A stretch of 8,215 nucleotides of DNA from Candidatus Roizmanbacteria bacterium CG22_combo_CG10-13_8_21_14_all_34_12 (lineage in GTDB: Bacteria > Patescibacteriota > Microgenomatia > UBA1406 > GWC2-37-13): the NCBI GenBank assembly GCA_002786595.1, contig PCTC01000033.1, forward strand, positions 1-8,215, written 5' to 3'. The position numbers and the translations under genes are program-made. Under the pieces are notes generated by a model. That model was not told where the DNA came from, did not search any database, and saw nothing but the letters and a program-made list of their open reading frames with translations. Shown one piece after another: positions 1-4,481 of the stretch; the first letter of the stretch is position 1, and the number at the start of each line of letters is the position of its first letter.

Positions 1-1456
1 CAACTAAATGAACCTGAAAAGGGGCTACCGATTCAGGCCAAATTATTCCTTTTTCGTCATGAAGTTTTTCAACAATTATTCCCATGATTCGGGAAGGTCC
101 AATTCCATAACATCCCATGTATATTGGCTTTTGTTTTCCGTCCTGGTCTGTAAATTTGTAATTAAATGCGTCTGTAAATTTGGTGTAAAGAGGAAAAATA
201 TTACCGATTTCAGCCGCTTTTTTAACTTCATACCTTTCATTAGTTTCAGGATCAACATCTCCGTCTCGAGCAACTTTTATATCGTAAAATTCTTTTGGTA
301 ATGGGAGGTCTCTTCCGAAATTGACGTTAACTGAATGATAATCGGTTTTGTTAGCTCCGCACTCAAAATTTAAGCGATTATTTACCGATTCATCGATATA
401 AACATTAACTTCTTTTGGTAAGTTGAGAATCCCTGCATAACCGACTTCGGCGCCAGTGACTTTTTTTACTATTTTGGCCGACGCTAGTTTTAAAGCTTTA
501 CATTTTACAATTTTTCTTAATTTATCTTCATTAACATCATAACCTCCTCGAACCGCAACGGCGATTACTTTATTATCGTCAGTTTCAAAAATTAAAGTTT
601 TGGTAGTTTTTTCAACTGGAATTTTTAAATAGTCAGCCAATTCTTGAACACCAATAATTCCCTTACCCAGAACATCTTTTTTTGGAAGCATTTCCTTATC
701 TTTTTCGATAATTCTTGGAGCAGTACTTGGAGCAACCTCTCGATTATAATAAATATTTTTGCTTTTGGCATAAAATATCACATCTTCCCCAGTCTCACAG
801 AAGGTTTGAAATTCATGAGAATAATCATCAGTAAAAGAACCGCCTGAAGCCAGCACGATCACCGTGTCATCTTTTAAACCTAATCTTTCAAATACTTTAA
901 AATAAACTTTTTTAGAAATTTCATAATATTTTTTAAAATCTTCTATAGTCGTATGAAAGCTGTATAAATCCTTCATTCGGAATTCTCTACCCCGCAATAA
1001 TCCTGATTTAACCCTCGGTTCATTCCTAAATTTTGTTTGAATTTGATATAAAGCAAAAGGAAAATCTTTATAACTTAAGTTAAATTTTTGACCTAGCGGG
1101 GTAACTACTTCTTCATGGGTTGGATTTAAAACGTATTGGGCCGCATTTTTAGCTTCGGCAAATTTATTTGCAGCGGTAGTTTTCATTAAGATGTCAACGG
1201 TTCCAAGTCTTCCGGTTTTTTCCCAAGCTGATTGCGGAGCAAGCGAAGGCATAAATACCTCGTTGCTTATTTTGTTCATTTCTTCGCGGATAATATTTTC
1301 AATTTTGTTTAAAACCCTTAAACCTAAGGGTAAATAAGTATAGACTCCAGCCATTACCTGGTCGATAAAACCACCCTTTTGCAAAAAAGTAGCATTAGCC
1401 GAATCGTATTTTTTTGAATCCTTTTTAGTTTTCCCAAAAAGTTTTGAGTAAAGCAT
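1..1456 (-). CDS. proS: Prolyl-tRNA synthetase, bacterial type with editing insertion (3' end outside window)
   Basis: Class II aminoacyl-tRNA synthetase that charges tRNA-Pro with proline in the cytoplasm. The frame is open from the ATG at 1456 to the left edge, giving 485 residues. The N-terminal region GVYTYLPLGLRVLNKIE (37-53) is typical. Motif 2 is seen as FRNEPRVKSGLLRGREFRMK (143-162), followed by the SHEFQ segment (213-217). An INS (YbaK-like) editing domain spans about 240-375, with the family signature CGANKTDYHSVN (366-377). Motif 3 is MGCYGIGPSRIMG (447-459). By comparison with E. coli ProRS (572 aa), only the C-terminal anticodon-binding domain, about 90 residues, lies outside the window. 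No Shine-Dalgarno is visible before the ATG; a TATAAT sits 10 nt upstream. It lies 44 nt downstream of the 77-aa gene on the same strand and may also be read from that gene's promoter. Identification is secure. Confidence 0.97.
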   Translation of the reverse strand, partial: MLYSKLFGKTKKDSKKYDSANATFLQKGGFIDQVMAGVYTYLPLGLRVLNKIENIIREEMNKISNEVFMPSLAPQSAWEKTGRLGTVDILMKTTAANKFAEAKNAAQYVLNPTHEEVVTPLGQKFNLSYKDFPFALYQIQTKFRNEPRVKSGLLRGREFRMKDLYSFHTTIEDFKKYYEISKKVYFKVFERLGLKDDTVIVLASGGSFTDDYSHEFQTFCETGEDVIFYAKSKNIYYNREVAPSTAPRIIEKDKEMLPKKDVLGKGIIGVQELADYLKIPVEKTTKTLIFETDDNKVIAVAVRGGYDVNEDKLRKIVKCKALKLASAKIVKKVTGAEVGYAGILNLPKEVNVYIDESVNNRLNFECGANKTDYHSVNVNFGRDLPLPKEFYDIKVARDGDVDPETNERYEVKKAAEIGNIFPLYTKFTDAFNYKFTDQDGKQKPIYMGCYGIGPSRIMGIIVEKLHDEKGIIWPESVAPFQVHLV

Positions 1457-1776: not shown

Positions 1777-1821
1777 ATGGTTGTAACAATCTAAAATGGC
1801 GATTTTGTAGGTTATAAGCGG

Positions 1822-1850
1822 TTGACAAAAATTTTATTACAAAATACATT
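1822..1850 (+). promoter_or_regulatory. Candidate promoter of the PaaX/Cas2-like gene
   Basis: Plus strand: TTGACA (1822-1827, 6/6), 17-bp spacer, TACATT (1845-1850, 4/6). The predicted start near 1857 gives a leader of about 65 nt that contains the first CGGCCG-centred palindrome (1871-1900). It is divergent from the promoter of the 77-aa gene. The -35 is perfect but the -10 is mediocre. Confidence 0.45.
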
Positions 1851-1870: not shown

Positions 1871-1900
1871 ACCTATTTATGACGGCCGCCACATATAGGC
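1871..1900. repeat. CGGCCG-centred palindrome, upstream copy
   Basis: A 30-bp imperfect palindrome: CCTAT and ATAGG arms around CGGCCG, with 11 of 15 positions complementary. It lies 21 nt before the PaaX/Cas2-like ATG, downstream of its candidate promoter. It matches the copy at 2494-2522 at 21 of 29 positions in direct orientation. One of the changes is compensatory: the pair at positions 11/20 is G-C here and A-T in the other copy. It could be an operator for a dimeric regulator or an RNA hairpin in the leader. Confidence 0.65.
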
Positions 1901-1921
1901 ATTGTATTAAGAAGAAAAAAT

Positions 1922-2503
1922 ATGAGTAAAAAATTTAAAAAAGGAGAAATTACAAAAATGGTTTTAGCAACATTAGGAATTGGAGCACTTTTAGGTGGAA
2001 CAGTATTGATTACTCCAAATTTTCCAATAATAATTGGTACTTTTATTAAATTGATTGAGGAAATAAAAGGTATCAAGCTACCAAAGAAAAAAGTAAAGCG
2101 GGCTCTACAACAATTAGAAAAAAGGAAAATGTTAAATTTGGAGGTAAAAGATAATGAAGTTTATGTTGAAGTGGAAGATATTTGGAATAAGGAAATTATA
2201 AAATATTCTATTCAAAGTCTTCTTGAATTAAAACAAAAAACTAAATGGTCAGGAAAATGGTTTTTAGTGATGTTTGATGTTCCAGAAATAGAGAGGAACA
2301 AACGATATTATTTAAGAAATTTTTTGAAGATAATCGGTTTTTATCAATATCAACAAAGCGTTTATGTCTTTCCATATGAATGTGAAAAAGAAGTTACCTT
2401 AATTAAGAAAATTATTGAAGGTGGCAAATATCTAAGTTATATTATTGCAGAAAAAATCGAATATGAAAATAAACTAAAAATTTATTTTGGTTTACCTATT
2501 TGA
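1922..2503 (+). CDS. PaaX/Cas2-like winged-helix protein (standalone, no CRISPR)
   Basis: A 193-residue protein with two parts. Residues about 8-75 resemble the PaaX N-terminal winged helix; the first part (13-40, MVLATLGIGALLGG and on) is unusually hydrophobic and could instead be a membrane segment. Residues 109-193 form a Cas2/PaaX-middle ferredoxin-like domain: WSGKWFLVMFDVPE (109-122), LKIIGFYQYQQSVYVFPYEC (135-154), and a C-terminal strand LKIYFGLPI. D119 sits where Cas2 nucleases carry the conserved first-strand Asp. PaaX proteins are repressors and Cas2 acts in spacer integration. Standalone members like this are common in CPR genomes and often labelled Cas2, but no cas1 or repeat array is here, so a regulator is more likely. 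It is the only plus-strand gene in the window, and palindromes flank it on both sides. The start has only a weak AAGAAG upstream. Family assignment is firm; function is not. Confidence 0.85.
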   Translation: MSKKFKKGEITKMVLATLGIGALLGGTVLITPNFPIIIGTFIKLIEEIKGIKLPKKKVKRALQQLEKRKMLNLEVKDNEVYVEVEDIWNKEIIKYSIQSLLELKQKTKWSGKWFLVMFDVPEIERNKRYYLRNFLKIIGFYQYQQSVYVFPYECEKEVTLIKKIIEGGKYLSYIIAEKIEYENKLKIYFGLPI

Positions 2504-2523
2504 AACGGCCGTTGGAGATAGGT
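2494..2523. repeat. CGGCCG-centred palindrome, downstream copy
   Basis: A 30-bp palindrome with 12 of 15 Watson-Crick pairs plus one G-T. It overlaps the last two sense codons and the TGA stop of the PaaX/Cas2-like gene. It is a direct repeat of the copy at 1871-1899. No T-run follows on either strand, so it is not a standard intrinsic terminator, although the adjacent gene on the minus strand is convergent. It could be an operator, a recombination or processing site, or an RNA stem protecting the mRNA end. Confidence 0.65.
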
Positions 2524-3044: not shown

Positions 3045-3073
3045 CTAATTTTACTTCTTCTTCTTCTTGTCAA
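3045..3073 (-). promoter_or_regulatory. Probable promoter of the 161-aa gene
   Basis: Minus strand: TTGACA (3068-3073, 6/6), then a purine-rich AGAAG-repeat spacer. At 17 bp the -10 is a poor AATTAG (3045-3050). An alternative TAAAAT (3048-3053) is a better hexamer but leaves a 14-bp spacer. Either choice places the start within about 0-3 nt of the ATG at 3039. The -35 is convincing and the -10 is uncertain. Confidence 0.45.
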
Positions 3074-3080
3074 GGGATTT
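3066..3080. repeat. 15-bp box, copy 2 (contains -35)
   Basis: Identical to 1762-1776. The core TTGTCA on the plus strand also begins the repeat units at 3091 and (reversed) 3328, so this box may be related to that intergenic repeat family. Confidence 0.6.
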
Positions 3081-3203: not shown

Positions 3204-3233
3204 AAAAATTGTCATTCCCGCGTAGGCGGGAAT
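3204..3233 (-). terminator. Candidate intrinsic terminator for the kinase operon
   Basis: On the minus strand an 8-bp stem (core TTCCCGC / GCGGGAA, 3214-3221 with 3226-3233) with a 4-nt loop is followed, after a few bases, by five Ts (3208-3204). It lies about 180 bp past the stop of the last kinase gene and is the best terminator-like hairpin on that side. It is also one end of the 91-bp MITE-like element. Confidence 0.4.
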
Positions 3234-3300
3234 CCAAGCTAAATATTCTTCTTTAAAAAATGTGATTATAGTCTGGATCCCCGTCTTCACGGAGATGACA
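3210..3300. mobile_element. 91-bp MITE-like palindromic element
   Basis: The 27-bp ends 3210-3236 and 3274-3300 are inverted copies of each other (21 of 27 identical), beginning TGTCAT and closing with ATCCA. Each end is itself a hairpin (CCCGC/GCGGG type with a 4-nt loop). Five of the six differences between the ends fall in stems and keep pairing: two Watson-Crick compensations and one G-U. The 37-bp centre is AT-rich and codes nothing. The TGTCATTCCCGC...GCGGGAATCCA pattern resembles intergenic repeats widespread in bacteria (Neisseria dRS3-type by memory). No clear target-site duplication is seen. Confidence 0.7.
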
Positions 3301-3374
3301 GGAAAGTAACAGTTTATTATTTGACAAGCCCTATGAGAATCCTACCGTTCGGTCACATAATTAAATCTGGCAAC
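3301..3374 (-). repeat. Right arm of intergenic inverted repeat (two ~46-bp units)
   Basis: Read on the minus strand, units start GTTGCCAGAT at 3374 and CTTGTCAAAT at 3328, 46 bp apart. The first contains TGTGACCGAAC and TAGGG, the second CTGTTACTTTCC, matching the left arm's motifs in order. It abuts the 91-bp element directly. Nothing else coding is seen in the 376-bp gap from 3040 to 3415, apart from a short AATATT-TCG-AATATT inverted repeat at 3161-3175. Confidence 0.55.
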
Positions 3375-3415: not shown

Positions 3416-3940
3416 TTATTTCAATGAGTTTAAAACCTTTTTAATAACATCTTGTGAAGAAATGTTTGAGGTATCAATAATCAGGTCATAATTTTTTGGG
3501 TCCATAAAATCGTTACGCTTATAGATTTTTTTTAACTTGCTAAGCCAATTATTTTGGCGCTCATCAACTCGAATCTTTGCTTCGTCTAAATTGATTTTTT
3601 CCCTATTGGCAAATCTTTTGTAGCGAATAGTGTCTTCACAAATAAGTAAAACTTTCAAAACATTGGAAAAATTATTAGCCATTATTCCTGACATCCAGCC
3701 ATCAACAATTAAATTTCCCGGCTGTTTTATCAGATTTCGAACCTGATAATCAATTTTTTTTGTAAGCGCTTCACTCTGCTCTTCAACATGTTCCAAATTC
3801 AATCTATTTTTTTTTACATATTCACGAAACAATTGTCCGGTCATAAAGACGGGCCAATTCAATTCTTTTTGGAGACTTTTTAAAAGAGTAGATTTACCTG
3901 TGCAGATTTTACCTGAAATAGTTATTTTATTAATTGTCAT
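3416..3940 (-). CDS. Cytidylate-kinase-like NMP kinase, copy 2
   Basis: A 174-residue P-loop kinase of the archaeal-type cytidylate kinase family (Cytidylate_kin2-like), predicted to move phosphate from ATP to a nucleoside monophosphate such as CMP. It has a canonical Walker A, GKICTGKST (10-18), an NMP-binding region MTGQLFREYVKK (33-44), the VDGWMSG strand (79-85) and an Arg-rich LID region (YKRFANREKINLDEAK). I chose the ATG at 3940. A TTG at 3946 would add two residues, but the ATG puts the P-loop at the usual distance. The start overlaps the end of the upstream paralogue by 11 nt, so translation is probably coupled. It is the last gene of the operon. Substrate is inferred from the family only; it may be a broader nucleoside or metabolite kinase. 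Confidence 0.8.
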   Translation of the reverse strand: MTINKITISGKICTGKSTLLKSLQKELNWPVFMTGQLFREYVKKNRLNLEHVEEQSEALTKKIDYQVRNLIKQPGNLIVDGWMSGIMANNFSNVLKVLLICEDTIRYKRFANREKINLDEAKIRVDERQNNWLSKLKKIYKRNDFMDPKNYDLIIDTSNISSQDVIKKVLNSLK

Positions 3941-4481
3941 ACCCAATTTGATCTAACACTTTTCCAAGTGTTTCCAAAGGCCCTGTTTTATAAGTATTAA
4001 TTACCAGATCAAAATATTTTGGGTCCCAAAAATTATATTCCCCATACAACCGTTTCCATTTATCGGTATTTTCATTCTCTCTTTGCTTAATCCAATGTTT
4101 TGCCTCTTCAACTGACACATTGTCTCTGTTGGCAACCCGATCAACCCTGATATCATCATGAGAGCAGATAAGAAGTACTTTAAGAACATCCTTATAAGAG
4201 CGGGCAAAAAATCCGGTAAGCCAACCCTCATAAATTATTTCTTTTTCAACTTTAAGCATTTGTTGTGTTATCGCATCAATCTTTTTTTCATGATCATCGG
4301 TACGGGATAAAGCACCCATTTCGTTTTCTTTAAACTTACACCTACGATCATGATTACGTTGGATTGCCCCAATATTAATATGCTTCCAATGGAGAGAATT
4401 TACAAGATTCTTTGTTAAAGTTGTAGTTCCAACAGCGATTTTACCAGAAATAGTTATTAAGCGAAATTTAGAATTTAACAT
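3930..4481 (-). CDS. Cytidylate-kinase-like NMP kinase, copy 1 (Thr for Lys in P-loop)
   Basis: A 183-residue paralogue of the next gene with the same architecture: P-loop GKIAVGTTT (13-21), an NMP-binding region HINIGAIQRNH, IYEGWLTG (83-90), LKVLLIC (100-106), and a LID with R112, R115 and R119 then EEAKHWIKQREN. The Walker A lysine is replaced by Thr (GTTT, not GKST). I recall archaeal cytidylate kinases with a GTGTTT P-loop, so this need not be inactivating. The ATG directly abuts the rseP stop (TAAATG) and the 3' end overlaps copy 2. Having two adjacent diverged copies suggests a heteromer or split substrates. With no pyrH in the cluster, one may cover UMP or CMP phosphorylation; that is inference. 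Confidence 0.8.
   Translation of the reverse strand: MLNSKFRLITISGKIAVGTTTLTKNLVNSLHWKHINIGAIQRNHDRRCKFKENEMGALSRTDDHEKKIDAITQQMLKVEKEIIYEGWLTGFFARSYKDVLKVLLICSHDDIRVDRVANRDNVSVEEAKHWIKQRENENTDKWKRLYGEYNFWDPKYFDLVINTYKTGPLETLGKVLDQIGYDN

Follow-up and report, generated by a model that had tools for sequence, protein, structure and literature searches.

The 8,215-nucleotide (nt) window analysed here, which is C68:1-8215 (contig PCTC01000033.1) of the genome of Candidatus Roizmanbacteria bacterium CG22_combo_CG10-13_8_21_14_all_34_12 (G000; 649,759 bases, 84 contigs), contains a single plus-strand gene, whose product of 193 amino acids (aa) is PaaX/Cas2-like and which lies between two imperfect palindromes. 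With a probability of about 0.52, we interpret gene and palindromes as a 653-base-pair (bp) autoregulated, palindrome-bounded, single-gene mobile unit, to which we attribute binding, repression and movement by inference. Dimers of the protein are predicted to recognise both palindromes; binding at the left palindrome would likely repress the gene's own promoter, and the pair would serve as the ends of the moving unit. Among close relatives the unit ends at its palindromes and is present or absent at two sites. Across the phylum the same architecture recurs with palindromes specific to each locus, and symmetry is kept by compensatory change.

Boundaries of the unit and its presence in relatives

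An earlier note on this sequence had described a standalone PaaX/Cas2-like gene, the only one on the plus strand, with one palindrome 21 nt ahead of its ATG and the other across its stop codon. All of this was borne out (coordinates in Table 1), the gene by a PaaX_M match and a weak Cas2 match, as was the change of the 11/20 pair from G-C (left) to A-T (right). The 21 identities reported between the palindromes are also correct, though over 30 positions and not 29. The spacing given for their shared pattern (N8-9 and N7-8) is wrong: both copies read CCTAT-N6-CGGCCG-N6-ATAGG. Searched with gaps of 7-10 and 6-9, the pattern had no match in the own genome; with N6 spacing it matched both window copies and, with up to two mismatches allowed, a third near-copy with one mismatch inside an open reading frame (ORF) that reads as glmS. 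The two window palindromes have 11/15 and 12/15 dyad matches. Among pairs of 30-mers within the window with at least 10/15 dyad matches each and 30-1,000 nt apart, they have the top joint score (44), which was reached in none of 100 dinucleotide-preserving shuffles; a chance origin is unlikely. The right palindrome was rejected by eye as an intrinsic terminator, as no T run follows it and the same palindrome precedes the gene.

Four close orthologues (L034, L035, L036 and L037; 80-90% identity) retain both palindromes, the fixed letters differing at no more than one position. L034 occupies the same site as the window copy, and L035 and L036 (99.8% identical DNA) and L037 lie elsewhere, giving three insertion sites. 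Between sites, DNA similarity runs from outer palindrome edge to outer palindrome edge, within 4 nt, and then ends. The rseP-proS region was fetched with both flanks from nine relatives: the unit is present in one (G016) and absent from eight, and the region holds a gene that reads by eye as YerC/TrpR-like in G015 and G002 and nothing in G014. At the L037 site, 11 relatives were compared and the 10 with both flanks all lack the unit; L285 has 27 nt between the flanks and L037 has 908 nt, which include the 649 nt of the unit. Occurrence at unrelated sites, with empty sites in relatives, is the pattern expected of an insertion sequence. At L046, L051 and L062, and near L065, a small convergent gene that reads by eye as excisionase/MerR-like lies directly after the unit, a possible insertion hotspot.

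These boundaries bear on an alternative that we regard as possible but doubtful, namely that the protein is a PaaX-like repressor of itself and perhaps of a few other genes, with the palindromes as operators (possibly looped) and the gene moved passively in genomic islands. Such a repressor leaves unexplained why similarity between sites stops at the outer palindrome edges.

Architecture across Patescibacteria

A profile built from 36 members was searched in 379 genomes drawn evenly across Patescibacteria, and the family was present in 96, with matches per genome reaching at least eight, as they do in many genomes. Sixty further copies were taken from the listed matches in rough order of E-value, excluding those already fetched, at contig edges, broken or short; this selection preceded any view of their flanks. 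When likeness between upstream and downstream flanks was required to exceed the 99th percentile of mismatched pairs, 54 of the 60 passed. The passing flanks are for the most part palindromes, some 28-44 bp long, whose cores are self-complementary; CGATCG is the commonest core, and CGGCCG, CATATG, CCATGG, CACGTG and others also occur. They are alike within one locus and different between loci, even inside one genome. A site at or just beyond the stop codon is thus retained in 54/60 copies, which again the repressor alternative does not explain. As the unit contains one gene only, the simplest reason for keeping a second site would be that the two sites together delimit the segment that moves.

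The flank test was preferred to a joint palindrome score of at least 40, which is reached by 82 of 92 units but also by 25 of 150 mismatched pairs and is therefore not stringent. A longer paralogue group (n = 14; 13 of 244-264 aa and L024 of 190 aa) fails the flank test in 13 cases, L025 passing, and four other long relatives have matching flanks (L018, L019, L022 and L077). None of 68 neighbouring ORFs had strong palindromes on both sides; six passed the similarity test alone, owing to A/T-rich sequence, a brief word in common or a local duplication and not to palindromes. When viral contigs were scanned once, 40 stretches fitted a peptide pattern and no relative was among them, so that a phage origin is unsupported there.

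The same data make it very unlikely that the palindromes serve a recombinase of the host or of a third party, as in pdif/Xer modules or at integron attC sites, with the Cas2-like gene as cargo. The arms differ among gene copies of one genome, which argues against a shared recombinase since this would need a shared site, and the neighbouring ORFs are not so bounded. In its favour, the 11+6+11 layout of the window sites resembles that of dif-type sites, no target duplication was found (see below), and some solitary palindromes adjoin accessory-looking genes (L273, L276). Moreover, on the reverse strand of the proS-kinase interval in L121 and L122, a gene that reads by eye as YerC/TrpR-like has its own palindrome, TGTATCAATCTATCAATAGATTGATACA or nearly so, on both sides; this may be the same arrangement built around a different DNA-binding protein.

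Solitary window-type palindromes are present as well, at 11 places in 8 of 54 genomes, five of them without mismatch and two with two mismatches. A reversed control pattern matched 13 places in 12 of the 54 genomes, and the two-mismatch solos may therefore be chance. Counts are low throughout: three window-type palindromes in the own genome, at most five in any of 54 relatives and, for the one G080 palindrome searched, two in G080 with no additional sites. This last result counts against a repressor of several genes, as do window-type solos in G008, G015 and G017 (genomes 80-94% complete), which have no close window-type gene. The solos at L273 and L276 adjoin ORFs that read by eye as HEPN/MNT-like and toxin-antitoxin-like, and at L276 the palindrome is preceded by text resembling the gene's last codons, so that it looks like a relic.

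Other solos lie within ORFs, including glmS, trpS (two paralogous copies in G006), recJ and a 569-aa ORF, the last in a different frame from the first three. The recJ site has window-type arms in G016 and L042-type arms in G008 and G002 (27 and 26 of 30). Plain insertion was rejected for these in-gene sites: length is unchanged in trpS, recJ and G000-type glmS, and G006 glmS is 3 aa longer. They are possible targets, scars or members of a small regulon. A comparison of 156 palindromes, at 24/30 or better, with 1.31 Mb of fetched DNA gave 25 hits at distances above 260 nt from any family ORF; some of them (e.g. L178, L187, L196) are probably a unit's own flanking copies farther out.

The protein, its predicted binding sites and points against the proposed mobile unit

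The 193-aa protein passes the curated cut-off of PF20803 PaaX_M (68.3 bits vs 24, E 6e-19) and has weak Cas2 matches (TIGR01573, 28.8 with a cut-off of 24.5; Pfam Cas2, 20.5 with a cut-off of 23.8). Some family members are annotated 'Cas2' in public records. The structure model (mean pLDDT 71.9; mostly 53-75 in the N-terminal half and 63-92 from residue 111 onward) places a helix-helix-helix-wing arrangement first and the Cas2-like domain after it. Its top match among solved structures is E. coli PaaX (8a39), followed by Cas2, and VapD is also among the fold matches. In the 36-member profile the Cas2-like half is better conserved than the N-terminal half and contains a motif of invariant S146, P151, C154 and E157. 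The aspartate after the first strand of this domain, D119, is more than 90% conserved in A2.

Family-wide, 44 double changes between left and right palindromes were observed against 8 expected, 34 of them complementary (82/92 units); the windows in this analysis were chosen for symmetry, which favours complementarity. Dyad symmetry peaks at the centre (positions 1-3) and 11-14 bp to either side and is lower at 6-9, and most copies have a central 6-bp core that is self-complementary or nearly so. This profile points to the footprint of a dimer on duplex DNA. It also makes it most improbable that the palindromes fold into mRNA hairpins which the Cas2-like domain binds or cuts, since symmetry is greatest exactly in the middle, the place that a hairpin needs for its loop. 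One site falls within the leader and the other at the stop codon, so that both are probably transcribed, and VapD and some Cas2 proteins cut RNA, both of which would suit hairpins; the near-palindromic 6-bp core would not.

Upstream of the left palindrome lies TTTGTAGGTTATAAGCGGTTGACA, in which a conserved block runs into a -35 box; the own genome has 19 copies when up to three mismatches are allowed. Of 12 genomes searched, six have 14-31 copies each and six have 0-3. The block may be an activator site or mark a special promoter class. Being a genome-wide promoter-like motif, it was rejected as an attachment site. As the left palindrome is just downstream of this motif and some left copies contain TTGACA (8/54, vs 2/54 on the right), binding there would be expected to repress the gene. 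The same promoter-like block, as AAATCCCTTGACAAG on the reverse strand, is found at 1748-1776 and 3052-3080, upstream of two orphan minus-strand ORFs.

A position between promoter-like motif and start codon, the PaaX fold and the dimer-type dyad profile all speak for a plain repressor, as does the lack of target duplications (see below). Of the earlier interpretation, selection on symmetry is now supported by the mostly compensatory double changes. The operator pair keeps its support, with a copy-specific pair whose left site is in the promoter/leader, and is compatible with the cassette; the reading as recombination ends of a moving gene cassette keeps its own, as the shared unit stops at the palindromes. 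The RNA stems are disfavoured. The comparison proposed there came out mixed: orthologues L034-L037 keep both palindromes, and a few solos stand beside or inside unrelated genes.

Several results weigh against a mobile unit, some of them favouring the repressor. The match between L034 and L037 begins within the gene, the window copy and L034 share an extra 68 bp upstream (though both are at the same site), and some 260 bp of additional DNA adjoins the unit at the L037 site. No shared word of at least 7 nt was found outside the palindromes in 60 copies (3.9% in controls), so that target-site duplication, which is absent in some insertion sequence families, was not seen. The single close same-genome pair among fetched copies (L065/L066, 91%) has both members at contig ends. 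Six of the 60 copies lack a passing direct pair. In L214 the right side is obscured by N, in L258 an inverted pairing scores better than a direct one, and in L238, L240, L256 and L259 every direct pair falls short of the threshold. Orientation is not fixed among the 54 pairs (36 direct, 14 inverted, 4 equal). Left palindromes do not resemble promoters significantly more than right ones do (p 0.13, 54 copies). Across 68 units, the palindrome arms show no correlation with the N-terminal half (partial r 0.01, p 0.39), a test weakened by the high divergence of that half, and the core instead tracks the Cas2-like half (0.29, p 0.003). Four intergenic solos (L273, L276, L278, L280) stand 28-127 nt before a codirectional, mechanically called ORF, as operators would, and others fall within ORFs like glmS, trpS and recJ, in one reading frame. 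Finally, we know of no Cas2 or PaaX protein that moves DNA.

Table 1. Features of the unit and its surroundings; positions are those of the window unless a residue or locus is given.
Feature	Position	Strand	Basis
PaaX/Cas2-like gene, 193-aa product	1922..2503	+	Pfam/NCBIfam matches, structure model
Predicted winged helix, low confidence	residues about 9-85		structure model
Cas2-like/PaaX_M domain	residues 107-190		structure model and domain matches
Left palindrome, core CGGCCG; left edge of shared unit, leader/promoter region	1871..1900	+	
Right palindrome, covers stop codon; right edge of shared unit	2494..2523	+	
Promoter-like motif TTTGTAGGTTATAAGCGGTTGACA, outside unit; -35 hexamer at 1822-1827	1804..1827	+	promoter role inferred
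Possible -10 hexamer TACATT, 17 nt past -35	1845..1850	+	reading of the sequence
Element-type palindromes inside housekeeping/other long ORFs	L082 1106-1133; L274; L275; L277; L310; L311; L137; L279; L042 8445		

The remaining window genes, all minus-strand, were named by eye as proS, kinases, rseP, frr, tsf, rpsB and galU. Clustering of the neighbours of 36 copies (cluster c8) identified an adjacent pair of nucleotide-kinase-like paralogues at 3416-4481, and 3209-3301 holds a dispersed inverted repeat, GTCATTCCCGCGTAGGCGGGAATCC ... GGATCCCCGTCTTCACGGAGATGAC, with several more instances in L123.

Relation to known systems and significance

The closest parallel is offered by the units of REP-associated tyrosine transposases (REP/RAYT, REPtron), in which a small gene lies between two imperfect palindromes whose symmetry is kept by compensatory change and which are lineage-specific (PMC2817692, PMC6006769). 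The Patescibacteria gene is similar in lying between two symmetry-keeping palindromes with compensatory change that differ between loci. It differs in its PaaX/Cas2-like protein, in flanking copies that are more often direct (36/54) than inverted (14), and in the low number of sites per genome, as counted for two palindromes, with no REP-like amplification seen for either. The Y1/HUH transposase domain PF01797 was not among the window protein's Pfam matches (E up to 1). We therefore do not join the unit to REP/RAYT on present comparison, there being no Y1 match, ends that are not mainly inverted and few repeats of the two palindromes searched.

IS200/IS605 elements share the minimal size, the palindromic ends and the lack of a larger target duplication, but their ends are hairpins bound by an HUH enzyme, whereas the symmetry here looks to be of duplex type and no HUH domain was matched. 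With PaaX repressors (PF20803; E. coli 8a39), for which dimeric operator binding is the expected mode, the protein shares the fold of the C-terminal half and a predicted winged helix in front. Unlike them, it has about 195 aa rather than about 300, matching palindromes on both sides of its own gene and a score far under the cut-off of the PaaX equivalog TIGR02277 (26.1 bits vs 264.55). Like Cas2 and VapD it has the Cas2-like fold with D119, but here the domain is fused to a predicted DNA-binding domain. In the portion of open-licence PubMed Central literature covered, no description of palindrome-bounded PaaX/Cas2-like genes was found, and the single-gene unit, if it moves as is likely, would be an apparently undescribed kind of minimal mobile gene.

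A bolder version of the mobile unit, which we consider unlikely, is that the Cas2-like protein is itself the recombinase: a dimer would recognise its copy-specific palindrome, cut or join at the core and move its own 650-bp gene, as a new class of mobile element. If so, the solos in glmS, trpS and recJ would represent targets or scars, and the units would be living relatives of the route that joined a Cas2-type protein and palindromic repeats in CRISPR adaptation.

Patescibacteria are a major, mostly uncultured bacterial branch with small genomes, in which, to our knowledge, few mobile elements have been described. The unit family, found in about a quarter of the sampled genomes and often multicopy, has a palindrome of its own at either side of each gene and so gives a ready supply of candidate pairs for work on protein-DNA specificity. 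A single small protein and a 40-bp DNA suffice for study in vitro, which bears on roles of the Cas2 fold outside CRISPR.
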